NCBI RefSeq assembly: GCF_014196625.1
Contig: NZ_JACIDZ010000002.1
Span: forward strand, 372,001 to 436,000
DNA from: Martelella radicis
Lineage (GTDB): Bacteria > Pseudomonadota > Alphaproteobacteria > Rhizobiales > Rhizobiaceae
DNA: 64,000 bases
Reading direction: 5' to 3'
The notes beneath the pieces are model-generated. The model was not told the DNA's origin and ran no database searches. It was given only the letters and a program-made list of their open reading frames with translations. Made by a program: the position numbers and the translations under genes. Shown one piece after another: positions 225-18,941 of this stretch. Within the stretch, counting starts at the first letter, position 1, and every line of letters starts with the position of its first letter.

Positions 225-1226
225 ATGAAGTGGGGTCTTGTCGGGGCCAGCACGATCGCGTCCGAGCACATGATCGGGGCAATCAGGGCGCAGGCCGGCC
301 ACACGGTCGAGGCGGTTCTGTCATCGAGCGCGGAGCGCGGCCAGGCCTTTGCGACTCGCAACGGCATTCCGCACGCCTTCACCGATCTCGAGACGCTTCT
401 GGCGCGCCCCGAGATCGGCGCCGTCTACATCTCCACCACCAACGAGAAGCATTTCTCTCAAGCCATGGCCGCCTTTGCCGCCGGCAAGCATGTTCTGTGC
501 GAAAAACCGCTGGCGCTCAGCGTCGACGACGCGGCGCAAATGGTCGAAGCGGCCAGAAACGCCGGCCTCGTCTTCGCCACCAACCATCACCTGCGTTGCG
601 CCGGCGCGCATCTTGCCATTCGCCAGATCATCGCCGAGGGCCGGCTCGGCCACGTCCTGTCGGTGCGGGTATTCCATGCCGTCAGCCTGCCGGAGCATCT
701 GCGCGGCTGGCGCATCGACAACCGCGACGCCGGCGGCGGCGTGATCGCCGACATCACCGTCCATGACGCCGACACGGTGCGTTTTCATCTTGGCGAGGAT
801 CCGAAGACGGTTGTCGCGCAGGCCGTCTCCTCCGGGCTCGGCGAAGGCGTGGAAGACAGCGTCATGTCTGTCTGGACCATGCCGTCCGGCATCATGGTGC
901 AGAGCCATGAGAGCTTCACCCATCCCTATGCCGGTTCCGGCATCGAGGTTCACGGCACGGAGGGTTCGCTTTTTGCCCAGGGCGTCATGACCCAGAGACC
1001 GACCGGCACGATCACAATGACGGACAAGGATGGCACCGTACAACTCAACTATGACCGCCACGACCTCTACGGCTACGGGCTGAAGGCCTTCAACCGGGCG
1101 GTTGCCGGCCACGGCCGCCCCGCTGCGGACGGCGTCGACGGACTGAAATCGCTGGCGGTTGCGATGGCCGTTGCCCGGTCGGCGCGCGAAGGCCGGGCCG
1201 TCGATGTGGACTACAAAGGATATTGA
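225..1226 (+). CDS. Gfo/Idh/MocA family NAD(P)-dependent oxidoreductase
   Basis: Cytosolic dehydrogenase of 333 residues, the usual family length. The N-terminal Rossmann fold shows GLVGAST at residues 4-10, the cofactor/substrate motif EKP at 93-95, and the family signature GGG..D...H with Asp176 and His180 in the C-terminal sheet domain. ATG 225 is chosen over an upstream TTG because GGGAGGAG precedes it closely. It is the first gene of the cluster, sits directly behind LacI-type operator copy 1, and is followed after 3 bp by the CoA-transferase gene. Family members oxidise sugars, cyclitols or keto-glycosides; the substrate here cannot be read from sequence. Family assignment is sure, reaction unknown. 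Confidence 0.88.
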   Translation: MKWGLVGASTIASEHMIGAIRAQAGHTVEAVLSSSAERGQAFATRNGIPHAFTDLETLLARPEIGAVYISTTNEKHFSQAMAAFAAGKHVLCEKPLALSVDDAAQMVEAARNAGLVFATNHHLRCAGAHLAIRQIIAEGRLGHVLSVRVFHAVSLPEHLRGWRIDNRDAGGGVIADITVHDADTVRFHLGEDPKTVVAQAVSSGLGEGVEDSVMSVWTMPSGIMVQSHESFTHPYAGSGIEVHGTEGSLFAQGVMTQRPTGTITMTDKDGTVQLNYDRHDLYGYGLKAFNRAVAGHGRPAADGVDGLKSLAVAMAVARSAREGRAVDVDYKGY

Positions 1227-1229
1227 GAA

Positions 1230-2804
1230 ATGAAGAGCAAGGTCGTCAGCGCGGAAGCCGCCGTCAGCCGGATTGCAGACAATGCCGTGGTTTCGGTGTC
1301 GTCCTCTTCCGGTCTCGGCTGCCCGGACAAGGTGCTGGAAGCGCTCGGCGCGCGGTTTGAGGCCACCGGCCATCCCCGGCGGCTGACCACGCTGCATCCC
1401 ATTGCCGCCGGCGATATGTACGGCATCAAGGGCATTGACCATATCGCTCGCGACGGGCTCCTCGACCGGGTGATCGCCGGTTCCTATCCGAGCGGCGCCT
1501 CGTCGCTGCCCATGCCGGAAATCTGGAAGATGATCGTCGAAAATCGGATCGCGGCCTACAACGTGCCCTCCGGTATCATGTTCGACATGCACCGCGACGT
1601 GGCGGCCAAGCGCCCGGGCGTCCTCACCCAGGTCGGCATTGATACATTCGTCGACCCTGAACTTCAGGGCTGCGCCATGAACGACAAGGCCGCGGACGCG
1701 CCGATCGTCAAACGCGTCGACTTTGCCGGCGACACCTGGCTGCATTTCGACAATTTCGCCCCCGATGTGACGATCCTGCGCGCAACGACGGCCGATGAAC
1801 ACGGCAATCTCACCTATGAGCACGAGGGCGCCTATCTCGGCGGCCTCGACCAGGCGATTGCCGCGCGCAACAATCGCGGCCTCGTGATTGCCCAGGTCAA
1901 GCGGGTGACGGCGGCCGGTTCGCTGCGTCCGCACGATGTGCGCGTTCCCGGCCATCTGGTGGACTGCATCGTGGTCGATCCCGACCAGTACCAGACCACC
2001 GAAACGCTTTACGATCCGGCGATTTCCGGGGAGATCATCCACCCGCTGGCGGATTTCGAGCTCGCCGAATACGGCGTGGAAAAAGTGATCGCGCGGCGCG
2101 CGGCGATGGAGCTCGCATCCGGCCAGGCCGCCAATCTCGGCTTCGGCATCTGCGCGCTGGTGCCGCGCATCCTGCTGGAAGAGGGCCATGCCGGCGACGT
2201 CACATGGGCGATCGAGCAGGGCGCCGTCGGCGGCATGCCGCTGACCGGCTTTGCCTTCGGCTGCGCGTCGAACGCCGATGCCTTCATGCCCTCGCCCAAC
2301 CAGTTCACCTATTTTCAGGGCGGCGGCTTCGATGTCACCTTCCTCTCCTTCCTCGAGGTGGACCGCAAGGGCAATGTCAACGTCTCCAAGCTCGACAAGA
2401 AGCCTTATCTGACGGCCGGCTGCGGCGGTTTCGTCGACATTACGGCCAATGCCCGCAAGATCGTGTTTGCAGGGCTTTTCGAGGCGGCGGCCGGCCTCAA
2501 CCTGACGAGCGAGGGCCTGTTCGTCGAAAAGCCGGGCAAGTTCTCAAAGATGGTCGAGGCCGTCGAGCACGTCACCTTTTCAGGGAGCCGCGCCAGGGAG
2601 AATGGCCAGGACGTGCTCTATGTCACCGAACGCTGCGTTATGCGCATCGGCGACAACGGGCTTGTCGCCACCGAGATCATGCCGGGCATCGATCCCGAGC
2701 GCGACATCATCGCCGCGTCCGGCGGACGGGTCTCCGTCGCAGAAAACGCGACCAGCATGCCGCTGTCGCTGCTGTCCGAACGGAAGATGGGGCTCAAGAT
2801 ATGA
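1230..2804 (+). CDS. Acyl-CoA:acetate/3-ketoacid CoA-transferase (YdiF-like, alpha-beta fusion)
   Basis: A 524-residue family I CoA-transferase with both halves fused in one chain, as in E. coli YdiF. The first half carries SSSSGLGCPDKV near residue 30. The second half carries the catalytic glutamate motif IEQGAVGGMPL, with Glu329 the expected residue forming the gamma-glutamyl-CoA thioester. It moves CoA from an acyl-CoA donor to a free carboxylic acid. The gene starts 3 bp after the oxidoreductase stop, so the two are co-transcribed and probably coupled. Together with the downstream crotonase and aldehyde dehydrogenase it suggests that an acid made by oxidation is activated to a CoA thioester. 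Acid substrate unknown. Confidence 0.88.
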   Translation: MKSKVVSAEAAVSRIADNAVVSVSSSSGLGCPDKVLEALGARFEATGHPRRLTTLHPIAAGDMYGIKGIDHIARDGLLDRVIAGSYPSGASSLPMPEIWKMIVENRIAAYNVPSGIMFDMHRDVAAKRPGVLTQVGIDTFVDPELQGCAMNDKAADAPIVKRVDFAGDTWLHFDNFAPDVTILRATTADEHGNLTYEHEGAYLGGLDQAIAARNNRGLVIAQVKRVTAAGSLRPHDVRVPGHLVDCIVVDPDQYQTTETLYDPAISGEIIHPLADFELAEYGVEKVIARRAAMELASGQAANLGFGICALVPRILLEEGHAGDVTWAIEQGAVGGMPLTGFAFGCASNADAFMPSPNQFTYFQGGGFDVTFLSFLEVDRKGNVNVSKLDKKPYLTAGCGGFVDITANARKIVFAGLFEAAAGLNLTSEGLFVEKPGKFSKMVEAVEHVTFSGSRARENGQDVLYVTERCVMRIGDNGLVATEIMPGIDPERDIIAASGGRVSVAENATSMPLSLLSERKMGLKI

Positions 2805-2848
2805 TTGCCGGCCACGCCGCATATTCTGCCGTCACGGCGAACCCAACA

Positions 2849-2983
2849 ATCTCCCCCCTTGAGGGGGAGATGCCCCGACAGGGGCAGAGGGGGGTGAACT
2901 CCCTCCGTCCTTTCGGAGCAAGCGGTTCTGCCCCATACCCCTCTCTGTCGCTTTCGCGACATCTCCCCCTCAAGGGAGGAGAT
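2849..2983. repeat. Palindromic multi-hairpin intergenic repeat, copy 1
   Basis: 135-bp element. Ends are the self-complementary blocks CTCCCCCCTTGAGGGGGAG and its counterpart; inside are hairpins TGCCCCgacaGGGGCA and GTCGCTTTCGCGAC flanked by GAGGGGGGT and ACCCCTCTC. It fills the gap between the CoA-transferase and crotonase genes. Six copies occur in the window. Confidence 0.9.
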
Positions 2984-3048
2984 CGGCGGAAGGACTTCGC
3001 AAGGCTCGTAGCCAAGACTCTGTCTTCAAGGACAATGGAGCCCGTGCA

Positions 3049-3816
3049 ATGAGCGCCATTCATCTGATCCCGCACGGCCCCATCGCCGAGCTGCACCTCG
3101 ACAATCCGGCCAAGCTCAATGCCTTCACGCCGGAGATGCTCGACAGCCTGGAGGCTCATCTTGCCGCAATCGAGGCCGATCCCGCCATCCGTTTCGTCAT
3201 TCTGACGGCCGAGGGCGACCGGGCCTTTTGCGCCGGCGCTGACATCAATGCCTGGGGCGATCTGTCGCCCGGCGATTTCGCCCGTTTCTGGGTGCGCGAC
3301 GGTCATCGCCGCTTCGACCGGCTGGCGCGGCTTTCCAAGCCGACGATCGCGGCCCTTTCTGCGCATACGTTCGGCGGCGGGCTCGAGCTTGCGATTGCCT
3401 GCGATATCCGGGTGATGGCGCCGAAGGCGACGATCGCGCTTCCCGAGCCCAAGGTGGGCATCGTGCCCGGCTGGTCCGGCACGCAGCGCATGACGCGGCT
3501 TCTGCCGGAGCCCGTGGTCAAGGAAATGGCGCTCTTCGGCAGGCGCATCGGGGCGGAACGGGCAACCGCGCTCGGCTTTGCCGCGGAGATTGCGGAAGAC
3601 TGCCGCGCCCGCGCCTTCGAGATCGCCGAAGCCGGACTGGAGACCTCCGCCTATTCCACCGAAATCGTCAAATACATGATCCACGCGGGCGTGGGCGAAG
3701 ACCGCTCCGCCATGGTCGAAACGCTGGGCAGCGGCATGATCGCCGCCTCCTTCGACAAGGCCGAGGGCGTTTCGGCCTTTCGCGAAAAACGCAAACCGTC
3801 ATTCAAGGGCTGTTAG
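3049..3816 (+). CDS. Enoyl-CoA hydratase/isomerase (crotonase) family protein
   Basis: A 255-residue crotonase-fold enzyme. The oxyanion-hole segment CAGADIN is at residues 61-67. Both glutamates typical of true hydratases are present: Glu113 in GGGLELA and Glu133 in LPEPKVG. That favours syn-addition of water to an enoyl-CoA rather than isomerase-only chemistry. It is separated from the CoA-transferase gene by repeat copy 1 and ends 2 bp before the aldehyde dehydrogenase gene. In this cluster it is likely to act on the CoA thioester made by the transferase. Exact substrate unknown; a dehalogenase or decarboxylase role within the same fold cannot be excluded. Confidence 0.87.
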   Translation: MSAIHLIPHGPIAELHLDNPAKLNAFTPEMLDSLEAHLAAIEADPAIRFVILTAEGDRAFCAGADINAWGDLSPGDFARFWVRDGHRRFDRLARLSKPTIAALSAHTFGGGLELAIACDIRVMAPKATIALPEPKVGIVPGWSGTQRMTRLLPEPVVKEMALFGRRIGAERATALGFAAEIAEDCRARAFEIAEAGLETSAYSTEIVKYMIHAGVGEDRSAMVETLGSGMIAASFDKAEGVSAFREKRKPSFKGC

Positions 3817-3818
3817 AC

Positions 3819-5336
3819 ATGACCGACCTCACCATCATCCCCGCTGTCAATCACACGCCGGAACCGGTTTTCGTCGCCCGCCACCTGATCAACGGCGTGT
3901 GGCAGGCGTCCGTGAACGGCGAAACCTTTGAGCGCGCATCGCCCGCTCACGGTCAGACGGTGACGGAGGCCGCCCTTGGCGGCGTCGCAGAGACGGAAGC
4001 GGCAATCGCTGCCGCCCGGACCGCCTTTGATGACGGGCGCTGGTCGCGCATCTCCGGCAAGGAGCGCGCCGAGATCCTGCTGAAGGTTGCCGCTTTCATC
4101 GAACGCGACCTTGATCGCATCGCCATGCGCGACACGCTGGAGAGCGGCAAGCCGATTGCGCAGGCCCGTGACGAGATCGCGGGGGCGGTCGACATCTGGC
4201 GCTTTGCCGCCTCGCTTGCCCGCACGGTTTCCGGCGACAGCCACAATTCGCTCGGCGACGACATGCTCGGCCTGGTGCTGAAGGAGCCGGTCGGTGTCGC
4301 GGCCCTGATCGCGCCATGGAATTTCCCTTTCCTGATCGTCTCGCAGAAACTGCCCTTTGCCCTCGCCGCCGGCTGCACCGCCGTCGTCAAGCCATCGGAA
4401 CTGACCCCGTCCTCGGCCGTCATCCTCGGCGAATTGCTGATGGAGGCGGGCATTCCCGACGGCGTCGTCAACATCGTGCTCGGCTATGGCGATCCGGTGG
4501 GCACGACCATGTGCCAGAGCGAAAGCGTCGACATGGTGTCGTTCACGGGCTCGACCGCCGTCGGCAAGGCGATCGTGCGAGCGAGCGCCGGAACGCTGAA
4601 GAAGGTTTCGCTGGAACTCGGCGGCAAGAACCCGCAGGTGGTCTTCCCCGATTGCGATCTCGACGAGGCGGCCGATGCCATCGTCTTCGGCGTCTATTTC
4701 AACGCCGGCGAGTGCTGCAATTCCGGCTCGCGCATCATCGTGCATGAAGACATCGCCGAGGCGCTGACCGAAAAGGTGGTGGCGCTGTCGAAAAAGGTAC
4801 CCTTCGGCGATCCGCTCGATCCGCGCACCAAGGTCGGGGCGATCATTTCGGATGCGCATTTCGACAAGATCGATGGCTATGTTTCCGGCGCCAGAAGCGA
4901 CGGCGCGGCCATACCCCTTGGCGGCGGAGCGCTTGCCGTGCCGGGGTTGTCAGGCCGGTTCTACACGCCTACAGTCGTGACAAATGTCAATTCCACCATG
5001 GCTGTCGCACGGGAGGAGGTCTTCGGACCGGTGCTATCGGTCTTGACGTTTAAAACGATTGAGGAGGCAATCGAGCTCGCCAACGGCGCCGCCTACGGGC
5101 TGTCTGCAGGGGTCTGGAGCAACGATGTCAGCACCTGCCTTGCCTTTGCCCGCCGCGTTCAGGCCGGCACCGTGTGGACCAATACCTGGATGGATGGATT
5201 TTCCGAACTGCCTTTCGGCGGCGTCAAGCAATCGGGCCTCGGCCGCGAGCTTGGCCGCTACGGGCTGGAAGAATACCTGGAGGTGAAGACCGTGACGATG
5301 CGCATCGGGCGCACGCGCGCATCCTGGGTCGACTGA
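3819..5336 (+). CDS. NAD(P)-dependent aldehyde dehydrogenase
   Basis: A 505-residue enzyme of the classical ALDH superfamily, oxidising an aldehyde to its acid in the cytosol. Visible are the cofactor-pocket motif APWNFP at residues 165-170, FTGSTAVG near 242-249, the general base Glu266 in LELGGKNP, and the catalytic cysteine Cys300 in FNAGECCNSGSR. It starts 2 bp after the crotonase stop, so the genes are tightly coupled. It may supply the acid that the CoA-transferase activates, after oxidation of an alcohol by a GMC enzyme of the cluster. Betaine- or gamma-aminobutyraldehyde dehydrogenases look similar; the substrate is not decidable here. Confidence 0.9.
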   Translation: MTDLTIIPAVNHTPEPVFVARHLINGVWQASVNGETFERASPAHGQTVTEAALGGVAETEAAIAAARTAFDDGRWSRISGKERAEILLKVAAFIERDLDRIAMRDTLESGKPIAQARDEIAGAVDIWRFAASLARTVSGDSHNSLGDDMLGLVLKEPVGVAALIAPWNFPFLIVSQKLPFALAAGCTAVVKPSELTPSSAVILGELLMEAGIPDGVVNIVLGYGDPVGTTMCQSESVDMVSFTGSTAVGKAIVRASAGTLKKVSLELGGKNPQVVFPDCDLDEAADAIVFGVYFNAGECCNSGSRIIVHEDIAEALTEKVVALSKKVPFGDPLDPRTKVGAIISDAHFDKIDGYVSGARSDGAAIPLGGGALAVPGLSGRFYTPTVVTNVNSTMAVAREEVFGPVLSVLTFKTIEEAIELANGAAYGLSAGVWSNDVSTCLAFARRVQAGTVWTNTWMDGFSELPFGGVKQSGLGRELGRYGLEEYLEVKTVTMRIGRTRASWVD

Positions 5337-5432
5337 GATCGCCGGCCGCGCCGATTGCGGCCTGCGGGAGAGGAAATGACCATCATGGCCGAAACCGGCC
5401 ATGGGGTTTCAAAACGCAAAGAGGAGGAGACT

Positions 5433-6689
5433 ATGCGTTTGAATTTTGCAAGAAGTGCAGCAATGCTCGCCATCGTGGCGGCTTCCGCGTCCGCGACATC
5501 GGTCAAGGCCGAGGATGTCGAGGTCCTGCACTGGTGGACGGCGGGCGGTGAAGCCGCGGCGCTGAACGTCCTGAAGGAGAACCTGCAGGATCAGGGCATC
5601 GGCTGGCAGGACATGCCGGTTGCAGGCGGCGGCGGCGAACAGGCCATGACCGTGCTGCGCGCCCGCGTCACCGGCGGCAACCCTCCGGCGGCCGTGCAGA
5701 TGCTCGGCTTCGACATCACCGACTGGGCCAAGGAAGGCGCGCTCGCCAATCTGAACGACATCGCCGCCGAGGAAGGCTGGGACGAGGTTGTTCCGTCGGC
5801 ACTGCAGAAATTCTCTAAATATGACGGAGAATGGGTCGCGGCCCCGGTGAACGTGCATTCCACCAACTGGGTCTGGGCCAACAAGTCGATCCTCGACGAA
5901 CTCGGCATCGAGCAGCCCGAGACCTGGGACGAACTCGTTGCCGCGATGGACAAGGTCAAGGCCTCCGGCAAGACCGCCGTCGCCCATGGCGGCCAGGCCT
6001 GGCAGGACGCCACGATCTTTGACGCCGTGGTGATGGCAACCGGCGGCCCGGAATTCTACCAGGCCTCGATGGTCGACCTTGATCCGGAAGCGCTCGGCTC
6101 CGACACGATGAAGGAAGTCTTCGACCGCATGACCGTGATCCGCGGCTATGTGGACGACAACTTCTCCGGCCGCGACTGGAACCTGGCTTCCGCCATGGTC
6201 ATCAATGACGAGGCCGCCTTCCAGTTCATGGGCGACTGGGCCAAGGGCGAATTCCTCAAGGCCGGCCTGACGCCGGGCGAGGACTTCCTGTGCTTCCGCT
6301 TCCCCGGCACGCAGGACCAGGTGACCTTCAACTCCGACCAGTTCGCCTTCTTCCAGCAGGGCGACGAGCCGACGCCGGAACAGGCGGCGCTGGCCAAGGC
6401 GATCATGTCGCCGGAATTCCAGTCGGCCTTCAACGTCGTCAAGGGGTCCGTGCCGGCGCGCACCGACGTCTCGGACGAGGCGTTTGACGCCTGCGGCAAG
6501 AAGGGCATGGCCGATCTGGCCGCAGCCTCGGAAAGCGGCAACCTGTTCGGATCCATGGCGCACGGTCACGCCAACCCGGCCTCCGTCAAGAACGCCATGT
6601 ATGACGTGATCACCGCTCAGTTCAACGGTGAGTACGACAGCGAAACCGCGACCGAGGAACTGGTCACGGCGGTACAGATCGCGCAGTAA
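5433..6689 (+). CDS. Sugar ABC transporter substrate-binding protein (GtsA-like, CUT1)
   Basis: Periplasmic binding protein of 418 residues with a Sec signal peptide (basic MRLNFAR, hydrophobic core, cleavage after VKA at about residue 26). The stretch [11 protein letters not shown] followed by MGDWAKGEF is characteristic of the glucose/mannose-binding GtsA group of Pseudomonas-type CUT1 transporters, so an aldohexose or related sugar is a fair guess. ATG 5433 is chosen because GAGGAGGAG lies just upstream and the signal peptide starts there. Permeases and ATPase follow on the same strand after a 313-bp gap with a hairpin and repeat copy 2. Confidence 0.87.
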
Positions 6690-7002
6690 ACACGCCGCAC
6701 TTCGGAGAGGGTCAAGGCCCTCTCCGCTCGCAGACCATGAGGCGGGTTTGAAGGGCACTTCGCTCCAATACCGGCTTGGCTTGCCAGCTGAACTTGCCGC
6801 TTGTCGATCTCCCCCCTTGAGGGGGAGATGCCCGGCAGGGCAGAGGGGGGTGAACCGCCCGCAGCACGTTCGGTGCTTGAGGCAAGCCCCATACCCCCCT
6901 CTGTCGCTTTCGCGACATCTCCCCCTCAAGGGGGGAGATTGATTGGCGGTAATCCGCTTCAGAATAACACCGGCGGCAGGGCCGCCAACCCGGAGGATAG
7001 GA
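6690..7002 (+). other. 313-bp intercistronic gap with hairpin and repeat
   Basis: The gap between the binding-protein gene and the first permease holds a 9-bp perfect hairpin (CGGAGAGGG/CCCTCTCCG, 6703-6726) without a T-run and repeat copy 2 (6807-6939). No gene is seen. Hairpins after a binding-protein cistron commonly stabilise its mRNA or reduce read-through into the permeases; that role is inferred here. Confidence 0.6.
6807..6939. repeat. Palindromic multi-hairpin intergenic repeat, copy 2
   Basis: 133-bp copy with the same layout as copy 1, ending 63 bp before the permease ATG. It lies between the binding-protein and permease genes of the GtsABC-like transporter, so it is transcribed within that operon. 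Confidence 0.9.
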
Positions 7003-7905
7003 ATGGCTTCGTCTGCAGCAAGACGAGGGAGCGCGGGAGATTTCCTGCGTGACGCCCTGCCGAAAATCGTGCTCAGTCCATCGCTGGCGATGGTTCTGAT
7101 CTTCGTCTACGGCTTCATCGCCTTTACCGTCTATCTGTCGTTTACCGACAGCCGCATCCTGCCGAGCTATGATCTCGTCGGCTGGAAGAACTACATGAAC
7201 CTCTTCCGGCTGAGAGCCTGGACGATCGCGGTCAAGAACGTCGTCATCTTCGGCGGGCTCTATATCACCTTCTGCTGCGCGATCGGGCTGATGCTGGCGA
7301 TCTTTCTCGACCAGAAGATCCGCGCCGAGGGCTTCATCCGGTCCATCTACCTCTATCCGATGGCGCTGTCCTTCATCGTCACCGGCACGGCTTGGAAATG
7401 GTTTCTCGATCCCGGCATCGGCCTTGAGGCGGTGATGCATTCCTGGGGCTGGACGAGCTTCCAGTTCAACTGGATCAAGTCGAACCAGATGGCGATCTAC
7501 ACCATCGTGATCGCCGCCGTCTGGCAGACCTCCGGCTTCGTCATGGCGATGTTCCTCGCAGGCCTTCGCGGCATCGACAATGAGGTGCTGAAGGCCGCCC
7601 AGATCGACGGCGCCTCCAATTTCGCGCTCTACCGGCGCATCGTCATTCCGCAGCTTCGCCCCGCCTTCATGTCGGCGATCGTGGTGCTCGCCCATATGGC
7701 GATCAAATCCTATGACCTCGTCATCGCCCTGACCGGCGGCGGGCCGGGCCGTTCCACCGAGTTGCCCGCGACCTTCATGTATTCCTACACATTCACCCGC
7801 AACCAGATGGGCATCGGCGCCGCATCCGCCGTGATCATGCTGATGTCGATCGCCGCGATCATGGTGCCATATCTCTGGTCGGAACTGAGGGAGAAGCACC
7901 AATGA
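7003..7905 (+). CDS. Sugar ABC transporter permease, first subunit (GtsB-like)
   Basis: Inner-membrane permease of 300 residues with about six transmembrane helices (first near residues 27-47). The cytoplasmic EAA-type coupling loop is visible as EVLKAAQIDGASNFALYRR and contacts the ATPase. ATG 7003 follows CCGGAGGATAGG, a strong ribosome-binding site; an in-frame upstream start at 6943 would begin right at the end of repeat copy 2 and lacks one. The stop overlaps the start of the second permease by 4 bp (ATGA), so the two permeases are translationally coupled and form a heterodimeric channel. Confidence 0.9.
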   Translation: MASSAARRGSAGDFLRDALPKIVLSPSLAMVLIFVYGFIAFTVYLSFTDSRILPSYDLVGWKNYMNLFRLRAWTIAVKNVVIFGGLYITFCCAIGLMLAIFLDQKIRAEGFIRSIYLYPMALSFIVTGTAWKWFLDPGIGLEAVMHSWGWTSFQFNWIKSNQMAIYTIVIAAVWQTSGFVMAMFLAGLRGIDNEVLKAAQIDGASNFALYRRIVIPQLRPAFMSAIVVLAHMAIKSYDLVIALTGGGPGRSTELPATFMYSYTFTRNQMGIGAASAVIMLMSIAAIMVPYLWSELREKHQ

Positions 7906-8783
7906 GTTCGAATGCTTCCACCCAGGTCGTCTCGACGGGCCGCGGCGCGCGCTTCGTCATCTACACGATCCTCCTGATCTTCTGCCTCTATTACCTTCTG
8001 CCGCTTTACGTGATGGTGGTGAACTCGCTCAAGCCGCTTCGCGAGATTCAGGCGGGCGGGATGATGAACCTGCCGGATGCCTGGACGCTCGAACCGTGGA
8101 AAAGCGCCTGGTCGACGGCGCAGATCGGCGTGCAGGCGACCGGCCTCAAGCCCTATTTCATGAACTCGATCCAGATGGTGGTGCCGGCTGTCGCGATCTC
8201 CACCGTGCTCGGCGCCCTCAACGGCTATGTGCTGACCAAATGGCAGTTCCGCGGCCACAAGATCATCTTCGGCCTTTTGCTGTTTGCCTGCTTCATCCCC
8301 TTCCAGATCGTGCTGATCCCGATGGCGCGCATTCTGGGCATCATGGGCATTGCCGGTTCCGTGCCGGGGCTGATCTTCGTGCATCTGGTCTACGGCATCG
8401 GTTTCTCGACGCTTTATTTCCGCAATTACTACGCCCAGTTCCCCGATGAACTGGTGCGCGCGGCGCAGATCGACGGGGCGGGATTCTTTACGATCTTCCG
8501 CCGCATCATGCTGCCCTCATCCGGGCCGATCGCGGTGGTCTGCATCATCTGGCAGTTCACCAATATCTGGAACGACTTCCTGTTCGGTGCGTCGTTTTCC
8601 GATTTCAACAGCCAGCCGATGACGGTGGCGCTCAACAATCTCGTCCAGTCCTCCACCGGCGTGAAGGAATACAATGTCCACTTCGCCGGCGCGATCATGG
8701 CGGCACTGCCGACGCTGCTCGTCTACATCGTCGCCGGACGCTACTTCGTGCGCGGCCTGATGGCCGGCAGCGTGAAAGGGTAA
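7902..8783 (+). CDS. Sugar ABC transporter permease, second subunit (GtsC-like)
   Basis: Inner-membrane permease of 293 residues and partner of the preceding gene. It has about six hydrophobic helices, the typical MVVNSLKPLREI segment after helix 1, and an EAA loop DELVRAAQIDGAGFFTIFRR. Late in the chain QFTNIWNDFLFG matches the CUT1 MalG-type family. Start overlaps the upstream stop by 4 bp, and the ATPase gene follows after 4 bp, so the permease pair and the ATPase are one unit. Substrate follows that of the binding protein, probably an aldose. Confidence 0.9.
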   Translation: MSSNASTQVVSTGRGARFVIYTILLIFCLYYLLPLYVMVVNSLKPLREIQAGGMMNLPDAWTLEPWKSAWSTAQIGVQATGLKPYFMNSIQMVVPAVAISTVLGALNGYVLTKWQFRGHKIIFGLLLFACFIPFQIVLIPMARILGIMGIAGSVPGLIFVHLVYGIGFSTLYFRNYYAQFPDELVRAAQIDGAGFFTIFRRIMLPSSGPIAVVCIIWQFTNIWNDFLFGASFSDFNSQPMTVALNNLVQSSTGVKEYNVHFAGAIMAALPTLLVYIVAGRYFVRGLMAGSVKG

Positions 8784-8787
8784 AAGC

Positions 8788-9897
8788 ATGGGTTTTCTCA
8801 AGATCGATCATGTCACCAAGAGCTTCGGCGCGCTGACGGTGCTGCATGAGACGGATATCGCCGTCGAAGAAGGCGAGTTCCTGGTGCTTGTCGGCCCGTC
8901 CGGCTGCGGCAAGTCGACCCTTCTCAACATGATTGCCGGCCTCGAGCCGACCTCCAGCGGCGACATTTCCATCAATGGCCGGTCGATGAACGGCGTCAGG
9001 CCTGCGGACCGCAACATCGCCATGGTGTTCCAGTCCTATGCGCTCTATCCGAACATGAATGTCGGCGAGAACATCTCCTTCGGTCTGGAAATGCACGGCG
9101 TGCCGAAGGCCGAACGCGACAAGGCGATCGACCAGGTGGCCGATCTGCTGCAGATCAGGCATCTTTTGAAGCGCAAGCCCGGCCAGCTTTCCGGCGGCCA
9201 GCGCCAGCGCGTCGCCATGGGCCGGGCGCTGGTGCGCGACCCGGATGTGTTTCTGTTCGACGAGCCGCTTTCCAACCTTGATGCCAAGCTCCGCGTCGAC
9301 ATGCGCACGGAGATCAAGAAGCTGCATCAGAAGCTCGGCACCACAATCGTCTATGTTACCCATGACCAGATCGAGGCGCTGACGCTCTCGACCCGCATCG
9401 CGGTGATGTTCGGCGGCCATGTGCAACAGCTCGGCACGCCGAAGGAGATCTACGACAATCCGGCCAACATGTTCGTCGCCGGCTTCATGGGCTCGCCCTC
9501 GATGAACCTGTTTCCGGCGAAGATCGTCGACAGGGACGGCAAGGCGGCGGCGGAATTCGCGCTCGCCGATGGCGGCACGGCGCATCTGCCCTTCCCCGGC
9601 GACGCCATGGCCGCGCATGAGGGCCGCGACATCATTCTGGGCGTGCGTCCGGAAGCGGTCACCGATGAGCTCGGCGCCGACCGTTCGTCCAATGCCGTCC
9701 ACACGATCAACGCCAAGGTCGAAGTGATCGAGCCCGCCGGGTCCGACCTTTTCGTCGTTACCCAGCTTGGCGGCAAGGAGGTGACGGCTCGTTTCCGCGC
9801 CGATGTCGAGGTGAAGCCCGGTGACAGCTTCCCCTTCGCCGTCAACATGGAAAAGGCGGTCGCCTTCGATCCCGAAACAGAACAGCGCATCGGGTAA
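8788..9897 (+). CDS. Sugar ABC transporter ATP-binding protein (MalK/UgpC/GtsD-like)
   Basis: Cytoplasmic ATPase of 369 residues. Walker [10 protein letters not shown] starts at residue 37, Q-loop FQSYALYP near 81, signature LSGGQRQR at 134-141, Walker B FLFDEP at 155-160, and a switch histidine in YVTHDQIEA. The C-terminal third is a TOBE/OB regulatory domain, as in MalK. It energises the two permeases just upstream. The GMC oxidoreductase gene starts 4 bp after its stop, so transport and catabolism are on one message. Confidence 0.92.
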   Translation: MGFLKIDHVTKSFGALTVLHETDIAVEEGEFLVLVGPSGCGKSTLLNMIAGLEPTSSGDISINGRSMNGVRPADRNIAMVFQSYALYPNMNVGENISFGLEMHGVPKAERDKAIDQVADLLQIRHLLKRKPGQLSGGQRQRVAMGRALVRDPDVFLFDEPLSNLDAKLRVDMRTEIKKLHQKLGTTIVYVTHDQIEALTLSTRIAVMFGGHVQQLGTPKEIYDNPANMFVAGFMGSPSMNLFPAKIVDRDGKAAAEFALADGGTAHLPFPGDAMAAHEGRDIILGVRPEAVTDELGADRSSNAVHTINAKVEVIEPAGSDLFVVTQLGGKEVTARFRADVEVKPGDSFPFAVNMEKAVAFDPETEQRIG

Positions 9898-9900
9898 GCC

Positions 9901-11385
9901 ATGAACCGGTCACCCGACGTGGTCATCATCGGCTCCGGTATGGGGGGCGCGACGCTTGCCGCCGCGCTTGCCCCGACCGGGGCCGAGATCGTCATCCTGG
10001 AACGCGGCGAACAGATCCCTGACGATGCGCCGGTGCGCGATCCCGACCGCATCTATAAGAACAGCGCTTTCCGCTCCGACGAGACCTGGCTGGATGCGGA
10101 GGGAAAGCGGTTTTCGCCCGGCAATTACTACAATGTCGGCGGCAACTCGAAATTCTACGGCGCGGTGCTGCTGCGCTATCGCAGCGAAGATTTCCAGGCG
10201 ATGGAGCATGAGGGCGGCATCTCGCCCGCATGGCCGTTTCCCTACGAGACGCTGGCGCCTTACTACGAAGCAGCGGAAAAGCTCTACCGTGTGCGCGGCG
10301 ATGTGACGAGCGACGCCACCGAGCCCGCCCATGACGGCCCCTACCCCTTTCCCCCGGTTCCCGATGAACCGGCGGTCGCCGCCGTGCGAAAAAGGCTGGA
10401 GAAAACGGGTGTCCATCCCTTCACCCTGCCCCTCGGCGTCGATATCGACACCTGGCTTTCCCATGGGGCCGATGGCTGGGATGGCTATCCCGATATCCGC
10501 TCGGGCAAGATGGACGCGGAGACCTGCGGGCTTGCGGCGGCATTGTCTCATGACAATGTGACGCTCGTCACCGGCGCGCGCGCCACCGGGCTCGAAGCCG
10601 AACCCGGCGGGCGTCGCATTGTCCGCGTCAGCTACGACAAGGGCGGCGAAACCGTGACGCTCACCCCGCGCTTCGTTGCCCTTGCCGCCGGCGCGGTGCA
10701 GAGCGCGGCCCTGCTGCTGAAGAACGGGCTCGCCAGTTCCTCCGATCAGGTCGGCCGCAACTTCATGAACCACAATGCCTCGGCGCTGATCGCCTATGAT
10801 CCGCGCTTTGTGAATGACAGCACCTACCAGAAGACCTTCGGCATCAATGACTGGTACTTGAGCGACGGGCATAACGGGCCGCCGCTCGGCAATGTCCAGC
10901 TCCTGGGCCGGGTGGTGCCAAAGATCCTGAAGGCCAGCGTGCCGTCCCTGCCGATGGCGGCCTGCCGCCATATCTCGCGCCATGCCGTCGATCTCTATGC
11001 CATATCGGAGGATCTGCCGGACCCGGAAAGCCGGATTGTCGTCAAGGGCGATGACATCCAGCTTATCTGGCGTCGTTCCAATATGGCCGCGCACCACAAG
11101 CTTGTCGAAAAGACGAAGAAGACGCTGAAGGCCGCCGGCTTCCCGATTGTGCTGTCGCGGCTTTTCGATGGCCGCGTGCCCTCGCATCAATGCGGCACGG
11201 CGCGCATCGGCAGCGATGCGAAAACGGCGGTGCTCGACCCCGATTGCCGCAGCTTCGACCATGATAATCTGTTCGTCACCGATGCCTCGGCCCTGCCGAC
11301 CTCTGCCGCCGTCAATCCGGCGCTGACGGTCGCGGCGCTTTCGATGAAGGCGGCGGACGCGATGAAGAAGGAGTTCGGCGCATGA
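9901..11385 (+). CDS. GMC family FAD-dependent oxidoreductase (first copy)
   Basis: A 494-residue glucose-methanol-choline type flavoenzyme that oxidises an alcohol or sugar hydroxyl. The FAD dinucleotide-binding motif GSGMGG is at residues 11-16. The C-terminal domain has HQCGTARIG and NPALTVAALSM, carrying the family's active-site His and Asn. No signal peptide is seen. It is in the same run as the ABC transporter (4 bp from the ATPase gene) and overlaps the SDR gene by 4 bp, so it probably acts on the imported sugar or polyol. It is quite divergent from the second GMC enzyme of the cluster, so the two probably take different substrates. Confidence 0.88.
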   Translation: MNRSPDVVIIGSGMGGATLAAALAPTGAEIVILERGEQIPDDAPVRDPDRIYKNSAFRSDETWLDAEGKRFSPGNYYNVGGNSKFYGAVLLRYRSEDFQAMEHEGGISPAWPFPYETLAPYYEAAEKLYRVRGDVTSDATEPAHDGPYPFPPVPDEPAVAAVRKRLEKTGVHPFTLPLGVDIDTWLSHGADGWDGYPDIRSGKMDAETCGLAAALSHDNVTLVTGARATGLEAEPGGRRIVRVSYDKGGETVTLTPRFVALAAGAVQSAALLLKNGLASSSDQVGRNFMNHNASALIAYDPRFVNDSTYQKTFGINDWYLSDGHNGPPLGNVQLLGRVVPKILKASVPSLPMAACRHISRHAVDLYAISEDLPDPESRIVVKGDDIQLIWRRSNMAAHHKLVEKTKKTLKAAGFPIVLSRLFDGRVPSHQCGTARIGSDAKTAVLDPDCRSFDHDNLFVTDASALPTSAAVNPALTVAALSMKAADAMKKEFGA

Positions 11386-12143
11386 GCGGCAGTCTGGCAC
11401 TGATCACCGGCGGCCAGCAGGGAATCGGGCTTGGCATCGCATCGGCTCTGGCTGAAGCGGGGTTCGATATCGCGATCGCCGCCGAGGCGGCGCCGGATGC
11501 GCCGGCCGTGACGGCGGCGCTGGAAAAGCTCGGCGGCAAGGCCCGCTATTTTTGCCATGACATGCGTGATCTCGATCGCATCCCGGCGCTTCTTGATGAC
11601 GTCGAGGCGAGGATGGGGCCGGTGACGACGCTTGTCTCCAACGCCGGCGTCGGCGCGCCGGTCAGGGGCGACATGCTCGACCTCAAGCCGGAAAACTTCG
11701 ATTTCGTCATGTCGGTCAATCTGCGCGGCGCCTTCTTTCTGGCGCAGGAGGCGGCCCGTCGCATGGTGGCGCGGGAGGCGGAAACGCCCCGGTCGATCAT
11801 CTTCATCACCTCCGTGAGCGCCGACATGGTGTCGGTGGAACGCGCCGAATATTGCATCTCCAAGGCGGGTGCGGCGATGATGGCGCAGCTTTTCGCCGCG
11901 CGTCTGGCGGCAGACGGCATTTCCGTCTTCGACGTCCGCCCCGGCATCATCGAGACCGGCATGACGGCAGGCGTGAAGGACAAATACACCGCCCGCATCA
12001 AGGACGGCCTTGTGCCCGCCGCCCGCTGGGGCACGCCGGAGGATATCGGCAGGGCCGTGCTGCCGCTCGCCGAAGGCCGCTTCACCTTCGCCACCGGCAC
12101 GGTGATTGCCGCCGACGGTGGATTGTCGATTGCGCGGCTTTGA
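11382..12143 (+). CDS. Short-chain dehydrogenase/reductase, FabG-like
   Basis: A 253-residue classical SDR. Cofactor motif TGGQQGIG begins at residue 9, NAG is at 87-89, and the catalytic Ser144, Tyr157 and Lys161 are in place. The end (GTVIAADGGLSI) is the usual SDR C-terminus. It starts inside the GMC gene's stop (ATGA). In a cluster with CoA-transferase and crotonase it could oxidise a 3-hydroxyacyl-CoA, or it could interconvert a sugar and a ketose; the sequence does not choose between these. Confidence 0.88.
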   Translation: MSGSLALITGGQQGIGLGIASALAEAGFDIAIAAEAAPDAPAVTAALEKLGGKARYFCHDMRDLDRIPALLDDVEARMGPVTTLVSNAGVGAPVRGDMLDLKPENFDFVMSVNLRGAFFLAQEAARRMVAREAETPRSIIFITSVSADMVSVERAEYCISKAGAAMMAQLFAARLAADGISVFDVRPGIIETGMTAGVKDKYTARIKDGLVPAARWGTPEDIGRAVLPLAEGRFTFATGTVIAADGGLSIARL

Positions 12144-12163
12144 GGGAGGCTCAGCGACCACCG

Positions 12164-12299
12164 ATCTCCCCCCTTGAGGGGGAGATGCCCCGACAGGGGC
12201 AGAGGGGGGTGAACCTTTTCCCGGAGCACGGCGCCCGCGGCTCATGCCCATTACCCCTCTCTGTCGCTTTCGCGACATCTCCCCCTCAAGGGGGGAGAT
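12164..12299. repeat. Palindromic multi-hairpin intergenic repeat, copy 3
   Basis: 136-bp copy, same orientation as copies 1 and 2, filling half of the gap between the SDR and the second GMC gene and ending 67 bp before the LacI-type operator. Confidence 0.9.
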
Positions 12300-12365
12300 T
12301 GTTTGGGGGCTTCGGTGGCCTACCGTTCAGCCGGGGAGACAATACGGGTTGCGCGACAAAATTCT

Positions 12366-12383
12366 ATTTGGAACGTTCCTAAT
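12366..12383. promoter_or_regulatory. LacI-type operator, copy 2
   Basis: ATTTGGAACGTTCCTAAT, an 18-bp palindrome with one mismatched pair, identical in 16 of 18 positions to the site at 193-210. It lies 32 bp before the ATG of the second GMC gene and suggests a separate promoter there under the same repressor. Confidence 0.65.
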
Positions 12384-12415
12384 CTCATGCTAGAAGGCCC
12401 TCGGGAGGAAAGTGC

Positions 12416-13996
12416 ATGGCCTATGATTTCATCATTGTCGGCGGCGGTTCGGCCGGTTGCGTTCTGGCAGCAAGGCTGTCGGAAAACCCTGAGGTCAACG
12501 TTCTGCTGCTGGAAGCCGGCTCGCGCGACAGCCACCCGTTCTATACGCTGCCCGCTGGCTTTGCGAAGATGACCAAGGGTATCGGTAGCTGGGGCTGGCA
12601 CACCGTGCCGCAAAAACACATGGACGGCATGTCGATCCGCTTCACCCAGGCCAAGGTGATCGGCGGCGGTTCCTCGATCAATGCGCAGATCTACACGCGC
12701 GGCAACCGCCTCGATTACGACGAATGGCGGCAGATGGGCTGCACCGGCTGGGGTTATGACGATGTCCTGCCCTTCTTTAAAAAAGCCGAGGACAACGACA
12801 CCTACGACAATGAATACCATGGCAAGGGCGGCCCGCTCGGCGTTTCCAAACCGGCGGCCCCGCTGCCGATCTGCGAGGCCTATTTCAAGGCGGCCGGCGA
12901 TCTTGGCATTCCCTTCAACGCGGACATGACCGGCGAGAAACAGGAGGGCGTCGGTTATTACCAGTTGACCCAGAAGCACGCCCGCCGCTCCTCCACGTCC
13001 AAGGCCTATCTGGCGGAGGCTCGCACCCGCAAGAACCTCACCATTCGCACCGGCGTCGAAACGCGGCGCCTGCGTGTTGAGAACGGAAGGGTCACCGGCG
13101 TGGAAACGGCGAGTGGCGACGTGATCACGGCCGCGCGCGAGGTGCTGCTGTCCTCCGGCGCCATCGGCTCTCCGCGCCTGCTGATGCTCTCCGGCATCGG
13201 CCCGAAGGCGCATCTCGGCGATGTCGGCATCGAGGCGGTGTTCGATCATCCGGGCGTCGGCGCCAACCTGCAGGATCATCTCGACCTCTTCACCATTCTC
13301 GAATGCGCCGGCGACTTCACCTATGACAAATATGCCGAGCCCTTGTGGTCGGCGGTCGCAGGCCTGCAATATCTCCTGACGCGCAAGGGACCGGTGGCCT
13401 CCAGCCTGTTTGAGACCGGCGGCTTCTGGTATGCTGAAGAGGGCGCCCGCTCGCCCGATATCCAGTTTCATCTCGGCCTCGGCTCCGGCATCGAGGCGGG
13501 CGTGGACAAGATGAAGAACCCCGGCGTGACGCTGAATTCGGCCTATCTCCGACCGCGCTCGCGCGGCAGCGTCCGGCTGAAATCGGCCAATCCTTCCGAT
13601 GCGCCGCTGATCGACCCCAATTACTGGGCCGACCCGCATGACCGCGAAATGTCGATCCGCGGGCTGAAGCTTGCGCAGGAGATCATGCATCAGAAGGCGC
13701 TTGCCCCCTTCATCAAGCGCGAGATGATCCCCGGCCCTAAGGTGAAAACGGACCAGGACTATTTCAACTATGCCTGCCGCCATGCCAAGACCGACCATCA
13801 CCCCGCCGGCACCTGCCGCATGGGCAATGACGATCGCGCTGTTGTCGACCCGGAGCTGAAATTCAACGGTCTTGACGGCCTGCGCGTGGTCGATGCCTCG
13901 ATCATGCCGACGCTGATTTCGTCGAACACCAATGCGGCGGCGATCATGATCGGGGAAAAGGCCGCCGACATGATTGCCCGCGAATACGGGTTTTGA
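12416..13996 (+). CDS. GMC family FAD-dependent oxidoreductase (second copy; choline/alcohol dehydrogenase-like)
   Basis: A 526-residue GMC flavoenzyme close to choline dehydrogenase and medium-chain alcohol dehydrogenases in layout. FAD motif GGGSAG is at residues 9-14, the GMC signature GGGSSINAQIYTRGN lies near residue 85, the active-site His is in HHPAGTCRMG, and SNTNAAAIMIGEKA is at the end. It has its own LacI-type operator 32 bp upstream and GGGAGGAAA as ribosome-binding site. It would convert an alcohol to an aldehyde for the cluster's aldehyde dehydrogenase. Substrate unknown; choline is unlikely because no other bet genes are present. Confidence 0.88.
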   Translation: MAYDFIIVGGGSAGCVLAARLSENPEVNVLLLEAGSRDSHPFYTLPAGFAKMTKGIGSWGWHTVPQKHMDGMSIRFTQAKVIGGGSSINAQIYTRGNRLDYDEWRQMGCTGWGYDDVLPFFKKAEDNDTYDNEYHGKGGPLGVSKPAAPLPICEAYFKAAGDLGIPFNADMTGEKQEGVGYYQLTQKHARRSSTSKAYLAEARTRKNLTIRTGVETRRLRVENGRVTGVETASGDVITAAREVLLSSGAIGSPRLLMLSGIGPKAHLGDVGIEAVFDHPGVGANLQDHLDLFTILECAGDFTYDKYAEPLWSAVAGLQYLLTRKGPVASSLFETGGFWYAEEGARSPDIQFHLGLGSGIEAGVDKMKNPGVTLNSAYLRPRSRGSVRLKSANPSDAPLIDPNYWADPHDREMSIRGLKLAQEIMHQKALAPFIKREMIPGPKVKTDQDYFNYACRHAKTDHHPAGTCRMGNDDRAVVDPELKFNGLDGLRVVDASIMPTLISSNTNAAAIMIGEKAADMIAREYGF

Positions 13997-14104
13997 GGAC
14001 TTGCGGAGCATGAGCGGAGGAGGCAAGAACGATCCAGCAGGAAATTATATGGGCTTGCCGTTTGGCATGGAAGCGTTTCTGTTCCGGGAGGCTTGCCACC
14101 CACA

Positions 14105-14240
14105 ATCTCCCCCCTTGAGGGGGAGATGTCGCGAACGCGACAGAGGGGGGTATCGGGCATGAGCCGCAGACGCCGCGCTCTCGGAAACGGTTCACCCCTC
14201 TCTGCCCCTTTCGGGGCATCTCTCCCTCAAGGGGAGAGAT
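14105..14240. repeat. Palindromic multi-hairpin intergenic repeat, copy 4 (inverted)
   Basis: 136-bp copy in the opposite orientation to the other plus-strand copies: the GTCGCGAACGCGAC hairpin comes first and TGCCCCtttcGGGGCA last. It lies between the second GMC gene and the LacI gene. Confidence 0.9.
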
Positions 14241-14287
14241 CGTCGGGTGCCTGGGGCGGAAGCCGAACACAACAAAGGGAATAGTAA

Positions 14288-15295
14288 GTGGCGAAACGAC
14301 CGACGATCATTGATGTGGCCCGCCATGCGGGGCTTTCCAAGTCGACGGTTTCGCTCGTCCTGCAGAATTCGCCGCTGGTCAAGCAGGAGACCCGCAAGCG
14401 CGTCGAGCAATCGATGCAGGCGCTGAACTATGTCTACAATCGCGCGGCGGCAAACCTGCGCGGGGCCGAGGCCGGGCTGATCGGACTTGTGATCAACGAT
14501 CTCAGAAACCCCTTCTTCGCCGAATTCGCGGCGAGCGCCCAGATGACCTTCGCCGAACACGGCTTCGCCACCGTGATTGCCAATACCGACGAGGACATCG
14601 CCATCCAGGATCAGGTGATCGCCTCGATGGTCGAGCATGGCGTTTCGGCGCTGATCATGTCGCCCGCCTATGGCGATGACGGCGCGGTGTTCGAGCGGAT
14701 CGCGCGCGCCGGCATTCCCGCGCTGCAGGTGCTGCGCATGGCCAATGCCGATACGGCCCGTTTTCCCTTCGCCTCGCTTGACTACGAGGCCGGCAGCATC
14801 GCCGCCGCCCGTCACCTGGTTGAGATCGGCGCGAAGGATATCGCCTTCGTCGGCGGCCTGCCGGACAGGGCGGTCACCCATGAGCGCATGGCCGGCTACC
14901 GGGCCGTGATCGCCGAGACCGGCGCCGAGCCCTTTACCCTGCTCGGCCGGCCGACGCGAGCCTTCGGACGCGATGCCGCGCTGAAGCTTTCCCGAGATCA
15001 TCGAAAGCTTGATGCGGTGCTCTGTTTCAACGATCTGGTGGCTCTCGGCATGCTTTCGGGCTTTGCCGAAACGGGCGTCGCCGTCGGCCGCGATATCGCG
15101 CTGATCGGCTTCGATGATATCGAGGAATGCGCGCTGGCCTTTCCCAAGCTTTCCTCCGTCCATTGCGATATCGGCGCCTTCGGCCGCAATGCGGCGGCCA
15201 CCATGCTGGCATGGCTCGAGACGGGCGCGCGGCCGCCGGAAAAGGCCTATTCCCCCGTCACGCTCACCGTCCGCGACACCAGTGGCGCAGGCTAG
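14288..15295 (+). CDS. LacI family transcriptional regulator
   Basis: A 335-residue repressor-type regulator starting at GTG 14288. The N-terminal helix-turn-helix and hinge (TIIDVARHAGLSKSTVSLVL, then NRAAANLRG) are typical of LacI, and the rest is a periplasmic-binding-protein-like sugar sensor domain. It is the last gene of the cluster. Two near-identical 18-bp CG-centred palindromes before the cluster's first gene and before the second GMC gene are its most likely targets. No copy of the site is seen before this gene itself or before the downstream polyol operon. Confidence 0.92.
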   Translation: MAKRPTIIDVARHAGLSKSTVSLVLQNSPLVKQETRKRVEQSMQALNYVYNRAAANLRGAEAGLIGLVINDLRNPFFAEFAASAQMTFAEHGFATVIANTDEDIAIQDQVIASMVEHGVSALIMSPAYGDDGAVFERIARAGIPALQVLRMANADTARFPFASLDYEAGSIAAARHLVEIGAKDIAFVGGLPDRAVTHERMAGYRAVIAETGAEPFTLLGRPTRAFGRDAALKLSRDHRKLDAVLCFNDLVALGMLSGFAETGVAVGRDIALIGFDDIEECALAFPKLSSVHCDIGAFGRNAAATMLAWLETGARPPEKAYSPVTLTVRDTSGAG

Positions 15296-15708: not shown

Positions 15709-17022
<1,314 letters not shown>

Positions 17023-17035
17023 GACTTCCTCCTGA

Positions 17036-17074: not shown

Positions 17075-17095
17075 CTTCTTGCTGAACTGATTTTG

Positions 17096-18097: not shown

Positions 18098-18099
18098 CA

Positions 18100-18930: not shown

Positions 18931-18941
18931 GGACAAGACCA

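Follow-up and report, generated by a model that had tools for sequence, protein, structure and literature searches.

The catabolism of 1,5-anhydro-D-fructose (AF) by Sinorhizobium morelense S-30.7.5 was reportedly described by Kuhn et al. in 2006. According to the accessible portion of a 2025 review (PMC12441222), aerobic Rhizobiaceae metabolise AF via 1,5-anhydromannitol (AM), the next enzyme, a C1 hydroxylase, is unidentified, and no oxidative pathway for 1,5-anhydroglucitol (AG) is described. The same portion relates that AG 6-phosphate is blamed for neutropenia in two inherited diseases, and that, for a probiotic, the enzyme would have to function in the presence of air. As far as the available source text goes, AG was reported in virtually all foods analysed. 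Here we describe a twelve-gene cluster at positions 225-15295 of a 64,000-nucleotide stretch of Martelella radicis DNA (NZ_JACIDZ010000002.1, positions 372,001 to 436,000; the whole stretch is called the window below). The cluster is a real, conserved unit. We tentatively read it as a LacI-controlled operon for taking up 1,5-anhydrohexitols (AG, AF and AM) and breaking them down aerobically, and give this reading somewhat less than an even chance.

Gene 1 and the conserved cluster

The open reading frames (ORFs) and two putative operators of the cluster are as follows.

193-210, no strand: putative LacI-type operator 1, ATTTGGAACGTACCAAAT, 5ʹ of gene 1
225-1226, + strand: AFR (gene 1), 1,5-anhydro-D-fructose reductase orthologue of the Gfo/Idh/MocA family; closest solved structures 2glx and 4koa
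1230-2804, + strand: CoAT, fused YdiF-type coenzyme A (CoA) transferase; Pfam CoA_trans, YdiF structure 2ahu
3049-3816, + strand: ECH, crotonase-family protein, probable beta-hydroxyacyl-CoA dehydratase; Pfam ECH_1, structure 5zai
3819-5336, + strand: ALDH, sorbosone-dehydrogenase-like aldehyde dehydrogenase; Aldedh 553 bits, structures 3u4j and 7w5l
5433-6689, + strand: CUT1 sugar-binding protein; SBP_bac_1, structure 4r2b
7000-7905, + strand: CUT1 permease 1; BPD_transp_1
7902-8783, + strand: CUT1 permease 2, by position and conservation in relatives; outside the Pfam scan
8788-9897, + strand: CUT1 ATPase of MsmK/UgpC type; ABC_tran and OB_MalK, NF008653 above cut-off
9901-11385, + strand: GMC1, GMC oxidoreductase of sugar dehydrogenase type; by GMC domains, solved relatives and a structure model
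11382-12143, + strand: SDR, short-chain dehydrogenase; adh_short_C2, NF009386 at 337 bits, above cut-off
12366-12383, no strand: putative LacI-type operator 2, ATTTGGAACGTTCCTAAT, 5ʹ of GMC2
12416-13996, + strand: GMC2, choline-dehydrogenase-like GMC oxidoreductase; by GMC domains and PDB search
14288-15295, + strand: LacI-family regulator; NCBIfam LacI-family models, best 183 bits, below cut-offs

All twelve ORFs were found on the plus strand at these places, in agreement with a preliminary description that had listed the genes on one strand. Pfam families were confirmed for ten products; permease 2 and the LacI regulator, the latter recognised by NCBIfam, were outside that scan. Six of the eleven gaps between genes are 2-4 bases or overlaps, and 96 bases separate ALDH from the binding protein. 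A binding protein, two permeases and a MalK-type ATPase stand in a row, as in a CUT1 importer. Here permease 2 is assigned by position and conservation: its ORF overlaps that of permease 1 by 4 bases, and homologues 58-99% identical occupy the equivalent place in relatives.

The product of gene 1 scored 381 and 372 bits against the solved 1,5-anhydro-D-fructose reductases 2glx and 4koa, and the next protein reached 95 bits. We take 2glx to be the S. morelense reductase and 4koa to be that of S. meliloti, SMc04400. The motifs EKP and VHD, of which the former and the histidine of the latter presumably provide the catalytic lysine and histidine, were at least 97% invariant (46 rows). In the Ensifer locus L068, AFR lies before CoAT, within the cluster itself, and scored 649 bits against 4koa and 617 against 2glx over 330-333 residues, nearly full length; the solved reductases therefore belong to the family of this operon. 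Judged from sequence, gene 1 is a 1,5-anhydro-D-fructose reductase orthologue, set clearly apart from other Gfo/Idh/MocA proteins. The preliminary description had called it a Gfo/Idh/MocA oxidoreductase, which was right as to family and too generic as to identity. The substrate proposed there, a sugar or polyol derivative, was open-ended; AFR points more narrowly to 1,5-anhydro sugars.

Published locus tags of S. meliloti match the cluster order: SMc04390 is an L-sorbose dehydrogenase by annotation, SMc04391 an SDR, SMc04392 a dehydrogenase and SMc04396 a sugar transport gene. In this tag order SMc04400 would be AFR, by our assumption, and SMc04390, as far as the available record goes, was taken as the counterpart of GMC2. 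The binding protein SMc04396 is cited as dextrin-induced, dextrin being an alpha-glucan, in the available part of PMC4960864. In the part of a PhaR study at hand, SMc04390-04392 fall in one large co-expression module with SMc04132, a DUF993 protein identified as such through structure 4dnh, the proteins being detected only in complex medium. From the one named enzyme, the literature phenotype and the cited induction report, 1,5-anhydro sugars are the likely substrate class.

Relatives of the locus were fetched by GMC1, and the best 80 of at least 565 confirmed matches were retained, so that near relatives are over-represented. The order of the twelve genes was kept in many soil and marine bacteria, and the closest cluster among the relatives listed was that of M. 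lutilitoris (L010), 91-99% identical gene by gene. Where at least 9 kb upstream could be seen, CoAT, ECH and ALDH were present in 57 of 59 loci; 49 of those 57 also had the importer, and all of these were collinear (49/49). GMC2 was present in 76 of the 79 loci with at least 5 kb downstream. The importer was missing in 8 of the 57 CoAT loci (six of Brucella, Ochrobactrum or Falsochrobactrum, one of Rhizobiales and one of Rhizobium). SDR was found in 51 of 79 loci and a levoglucosan-dehydrogenase-like Gfo or FAD_binding_2 gene in 24, never both, and neither in 4. The CoAT-less loci L028 and L075 were also without the remaining cluster genes.

An even draw of 297 genomes from the order Rhizobiales gave strong CoAT matches in 41, GMC1 in 31 and AFR in 30. 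CoAT and GMC1 co-occurred in 30 genomes against 4.3 expected, a figure uncorrected for relatedness. Of the 30 AFR genomes, 25 had that gene no more than 200 bp from CoAT; of the 31 with GMC1, 27 had it no more than 12 kb from CoAT. In a phylum sample, 22 of 398 genomes had a CoAT that was about 60% identical or closer, with ECH (22/22), ALDH (19/22) and AFR (15/22) within 1.5 kb; among the three ALDH misses were one contig end and one locus without ALDH there. An association common to any CoAT homologue was rejected, since none of eight loci with a CoAT of 40-44% identity had another cluster gene within that distance.

These counts bear on whether two unrelated modules merely adjoin by chance, as the 8 importer-less CoAT loci and the 12 of 41 order-level genomes with CoAT but without AFR or GMC1 nearby might suggest. 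Collinearity in 49/49 loci and the excess co-occurrence contradict a chance neighbourhood, one operator type stands before both gene 1 and GMC2, and we consider this explanation extremely improbable. The cluster is firmly a conserved unit. The preliminary description had taken it as a single catabolic unit that couples a sugar-type importer with the chemistry of alcohols, aldehydes, acids and acyl-CoA, which the 57/59 and 49/49 loci bear out; it had named modules always apart in relatives as a finding that would speak against this, and the set lay together in most loci.

Some loci were peculiar in other ways. In L028 (9989-11509) and L075 (10001-11479), GMC1 homologues 59-60% identical stand beside a GntR-like gene, perhaps as the remnant of a lost cluster. 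Neighbours in L075 look like genes for a galactonate dehydratase and for a CUT2 importer, and an equivalent gene group flanks the full cluster in L085. In L013, deposited as Marinicella sp. W31, the cluster is 86-97% identical to the window proteins, with several genes partly matched or split between ORFs; this suggests a mislabelled organism with sequence errors or decay.

Operators and intergenic sequences

The palindrome ATTTGGAACGTTCCAAAT was found at 193-210 and 12366-12383, with one mismatch at each place, and the second site ends 32 bases before the GMC2 start. At up to three mismatches, these were the two sites in the 64-kb window against 0.03 expected by chance. The whole genome held both cluster operators and one further site with three mismatches, on contig 1 among ORFs of unrecognised kind. 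In the 80 loci of relatives (1.53 Mb), 40 sites were found at the same threshold, where 20 half-site-permuted palindromes gave 0.15 on average. They were placed before LacI (16), the binding protein (8), divergent DUF993 genes (7), GMC2 (5), AFR (3) and GMC1 (1). The cluster is probably under LacI control through linked operators. A second LacI gene was present in 21 of 59 loci. The eight binding-protein sites are variants such as ATTTGTAACGTTTTAAAT from loci that carry two LacI genes, and therefore probably answer to the second regulator.

The four larger gaps of the cluster (CoAT to ECH, binding protein to permease, SDR to GMC2, and GMC2 to LacI) each contain one copy of a palindromic repeat of about 140 bp. 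In the window it lies at 2842-2990, 6807-6939, 12158-12299, 14099-14247, 33753-33885 and 38435-38583, and dozens of full or partial matches were found genome-wide. Rfam gave no match in the window, the repeat included. The repeat occupies four places in the window cluster against two in that of M. lutilitoris (L010) and one in L011, so that copies seem to have been recently gained or lost.

Upstream, the likely next gene reads as a nucleotidyltransferase on the opposite strand. Downstream on the plus strand, at 15676-21480, ORFs read as a second CUT1-type importer, of polyol type, followed by a mannitol-type dehydrogenase.

Enzymes, proposed route and alternatives

The nearest solved sequences to GMC1 were FAD glucose dehydrogenase (196 bits) and fructose dehydrogenase (144 bits), with pyranose oxidase at 54 bits. 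Its structure model (pLDDT 75.8) resembled those two dehydrogenases most, with pyranose and C-glycoside oxidases next. In GMC2, choline-dehydrogenase-like by PDB search, 280 of 526 positions showed an invariance of 97% or more (78 rows). The binding protein scored 616 bits against 4r2b, which we take to be a binding protein holding glucose, followed by ABC sugar-binding proteins that include a glucose-binding protein at 139 bits.

These relatives raise the alternative of a glucose/osone route. The importer would supply glucose for oxidation by GMC1 at C2 or C3, AFR would form mannose from the 2-keto-aldose, and a side product would fall to the CoA genes. The glucose-binding relative and the nearness of GMC1 to FAD glucose dehydrogenase fit it, and AFR was reportedly found to reduce 2-keto-aldoses in a 2006 study. 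This alternative is nevertheless rather improbable: it gives no role to ALDH, CoAT and ECH, present in 57/59 loci, or to GMC2, present in 76/79.

C-glycoside oxidases among the model matches also recall glycoside deglycosylation through 3-keto intermediates, in which GMC1 would attack a plant glycoside at C3 by oxidation and beta-elimination would break the bond, as in the Agrobacterium GlycDH/OGE system. A levoglucosan-dehydrogenase-like Gfo in R. leguminosarum-type loci (307 bits, cut-off 650) and an AP_endonuc_2 barrel near the CoA module in L152 fit such a route. However, the AP_endonuc_2 domain was absent from the ten Pfam-scanned window products, CoA is not obviously needed, and the best solved relatives of GMC1 were the glucose and fructose dehydrogenases, with pyranose oxidase well below. 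We regard this route as distinctly improbable.

CoAT scored 320 bits against YdiF 2ahu. The glutamate of its E.G..GG motif, presumably the active-site residue, was at least 97% invariant across 86 rows, a set that includes eight paralogues. A reading of CoAT as staphylococcal FadX (NF052271) was discarded at 317 bits against a curated cut-off of 750. The nearest solved structure to ECH was 3-hydroxypropionyl-CoA dehydratase 5zai (173 bits), and both catalytic glutamates, Glu113 (GGGLE) and Glu133 (PE), were among its positions at least 97% invariant (79 rows), as the preliminary description had noted for the window protein. It had also proposed hydration by the crotonase; with 5zai as the nearest relative, dehydration is at least as likely. 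ALDH matched best 3u4j, an unspecific NAD-dependent aldehyde dehydrogenase (539 bits); L-sorbosone dehydrogenase 7w5l came second (486 bits), and the next match reached 389 bits. SDR was above the cut-off of NF009386, a 3-ketoacyl-ACP reductase model.

Ten loci were fetched in which CoAT has neither AFR nor GMC1 in its vicinity; two are second copies, their genomes having a full cluster as well. They contained CoAT (10), ECH (8), an SDR of 43-57% identity (7), a GMC2-like gene (6) and DUF993 (4); a closely ALDH-like gene was present in two (L151, L155) and a CUT1 importer in two (L148, L151). A TctC-type importer lies near CoAT-ECH-SDR in L146, which also carries a FAH-family protein, and a TRAP-type DctP/DctM importer in L152. 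TctC-type and TRAP-type importers mostly carry carboxylates. In the 17.6-19.9 kb seen of these two loci no GMC-like gene was found, and the ALDH of L146 was only a distant match (35%). Importers of carboxylate type thus replace GMC2, ALDH and the sugar importer there, and so an acid probably enters CoAT; put simply, CoAT would activate an acid produced by GMC2 and ALDH. A sulfatase gene was also seen near the module in L146 (4285-5823), where the substrate is perhaps sulfated. A role of SDR as 2,5-diketo acid reductase was weakened, as its homologues stay near CoAT in 7 of the 10 loci.

The same enzymes could act in a manner like beta-oxidation, a use close to the one that the preliminary description had proposed. 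A pyranose or polyol derivative would be oxidised to an acid and activated by CoAT, ECH would hydrate an enoyl-CoA, SDR would oxidise the 3-hydroxyacyl-CoA, and retro-aldol or retro-Claisen cleavage would follow, an anhydrosugar not being required. The SDR model match, its homologues in 7 of the 10 loci, and the acyl-CoA dehydrogenase and electron-transfer flavoprotein (ETF) genes near CoAT-ECH-SDR-DUF993 in L147 agree with this. On the other side, Pfam and NCBIfam gave no match to acyl-CoA dehydrogenase or thiolase families among the window products scanned, the nearest solved relative of ECH is a dehydratase, and AFR adjoining CoAT in 25 of 30 genomes is left unexplained. We hold this alternative to be unlikely and favour dehydration by ECH, although the L147 genes speak for the earlier proposal.

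DUF993 genes were found in 8 of the 80 loci, divergent in 7, each of these with an operator (7/7). A fold comparison set beforehand as a test matched the moderate model (pLDDT 73.4) to 4dnh, of its own family, then to dihydrodipicolinate synthase (DHDPS), keto-deoxy-galactarate dehydratase and 2-keto-3-deoxygluconate (KDG) aldolase. In the profile alignment Lys236, invariant in 9 rows, stood opposite the lysine of GVKDATG, a DHDPS motif. The model thus points to an aldolase-superfamily, DHDPS-like fold. DUF993 had no mention in the literature searched. In 17 of 79 loci a gene of the glycerate-2-kinase family lies 3ʹ of GMC2, with scores below curated NCBIfam cut-offs. The absence of a kinase or aldolase, stressed earlier as an oddity, is less odd given these two families in relatives.

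For 1,5-anhydrohexitols, the following route could be drawn. The CUT1 importer would take up a pyranose-like anhydro sugar, GMC1 would oxidise AG at C2 to AF, and AFR would reduce AF to AM, a reaction known, in part from a passage of the 2025 review, for the orthologous enzyme. GMC2 and ALDH, like sorbose and sorbosone dehydrogenases, would oxidise C6 to the aldehyde and then to the acid, 1,5-anhydromannuronate. CoAT would form the thioester with CoA from a later intermediate, as with CaiB/CaiD of carnitine. The thioester would make H5 acidic, with the C4 hydroxyl in beta position and cis to H5; ECH could then eliminate the C4 hydroxyl and H5 in syn fashion, the two being cis in both gluco and manno configurations, to give a cyclic 4,5-enol ether. 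Its hydration would open the ring to a 2-keto-3-deoxyhexonate. By a configuration check, AM would give the D-erythro product, D-KDG, and AG the L-threo isomer; that the manno configuration at C2 leads exactly to D-KDG would explain the reduction of AF to AM.

KDG would finally give pyruvate and a C3 unit. One option is oxidation by SDR, hydrolytic or aldol cleavage (by DUF993 or FAH-family proteins in relatives) and glycerate 2-kinase. In another, modelled on the 2-keto-3-deoxyfuconate route, SDR and a diketo-acid hydrolase would yield pyruvate and glycerate. The model route includes a 4-dehydrogenase, according to the available part of the source. Alternatively, KDG could enter the Entner-Doudoroff route once phosphorylated, since 2-keto-3-deoxy-6-phosphogluconate (KDPG) aldolase is present in the window genome.

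Several observations weigh against the 1,5-anhydrohexitol reading. An obvious enol-ether hydrolase for ring opening was not found among the window enzymes, and the available part of PMC12441222 has S. morelense convert AF to AM and then, by hydroxylation at C1, to mannose, without these genes. AFR was missing before CoAT in 5 of 34 loci with both flanks judgeable, where GMC1, GMC2, ALDH and CoAT were kept, and did not adjoin CoAT in 5 of the 30 order-level genomes with AFR. The 12 CoAT genomes without AFR or GMC1 nearby, two of which have GMC1 on another contig, indicate further substrates for the CoA module, and the L147 genes better suit beta-oxidation-like chemistry. DUF993 gives a weak profile match to DHDPS, with a probability of 45.6% in local and 64.7% in global alignment, and its model is moderate (pLDDT 73.4). 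The single DUF993 gene of the window genome lies about 230 kb off on the same contig, with no operator match at its locus. Operators at up to three mismatches occurred in only 25 of 80 loci, many of which end short upstream. The different motif often found before the binding protein in second-LacI loci means that transport may answer to another signal there, as the preliminary description had allowed.

The own DUF993 locus of the window genome (L133, 8349-14855; contig 2 near 139 kb) holds a Gfo-type oxidoreductase, DUF993, an AP_endonuc_2/xylose-isomerase-like barrel and tripartite-carboxylate-transporter-like genes, perhaps a second sugar-acid pathway using DUF993.

Bacterial sugar-catabolic operons are already known as a kind, and the proposed pathway would be the new part. 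It was not described among the papers listed by the literature searches, most of which were judged by title and the start of the abstract, subscription papers being mostly outside. That this is an undescribed aerobic AG pathway, with C2 epimerisation via AF, C6 oxidation, crotonase dehydration of a sugar ring as CoA thioester and opening to KDG, we consider doubtful. If true, CoA thioesters and a crotonase opening a sugar ring would be a new entry to sugar-acid metabolism, and DUF993 would be a new aldolase or hydrolase family. A conserved, regulated cluster in culturable rhizobia offers concrete candidate genes.

Comparison with known systems

Sorbose and sorbosone dehydrogenases form a pair in Gluconobacter. 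As proposed for the cluster, this pair combines an FAD alcohol dehydrogenase with an NAD(P)-dependent aldehyde dehydrogenase to take a sugar primary alcohol to the acid; in the cluster CoA activation would follow. In carnitine metabolism, CaiB and CaiD are a CoA-transferase and a crotonase that dehydrate a beta-hydroxyacyl-CoA with recycling of CoA. The logic proposed here is similar, but the substrate there is no sugar acid, and CaiB belongs to another CoA-transferase family than CoAT.

The Agrobacterium GlycDH/OGE operon for 3-keto-glycosides likewise joins a sugar-oxidising flavoenzyme and a Gfo oxidoreductase, as far as the available part of PMC10628242 goes. That part names two enzymes of sugar-phosphate-isomerase type (an eliminase and a hydratase) and no CoA genes, the reverse of the window, where no AP_endonuc_2-type TIM-barrel eliminase was found among the ten Pfam-scanned products. 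The anaerobic gut-bacterial AG pathway, with a phosphotransferase system and glycyl-radical enzymes, shares the proposed substrate class, according to the accessible portion of PMC12441222. It proceeds by phosphorylation and oxygen-sensitive radical ring opening, neither of which was found among the scanned window genes.

Among the closest systems is AF catabolism in S. morelense S-30.7.5. Its first enzyme is of the same type as gene 1, with a close copy in the Ensifer L068 cluster. There, as the same portion of the review has it, AM is converted to mannose by a C1 hydroxylase, whereas the neighbours of gene 1 here suggest C6 oxidation and CoA chemistry.

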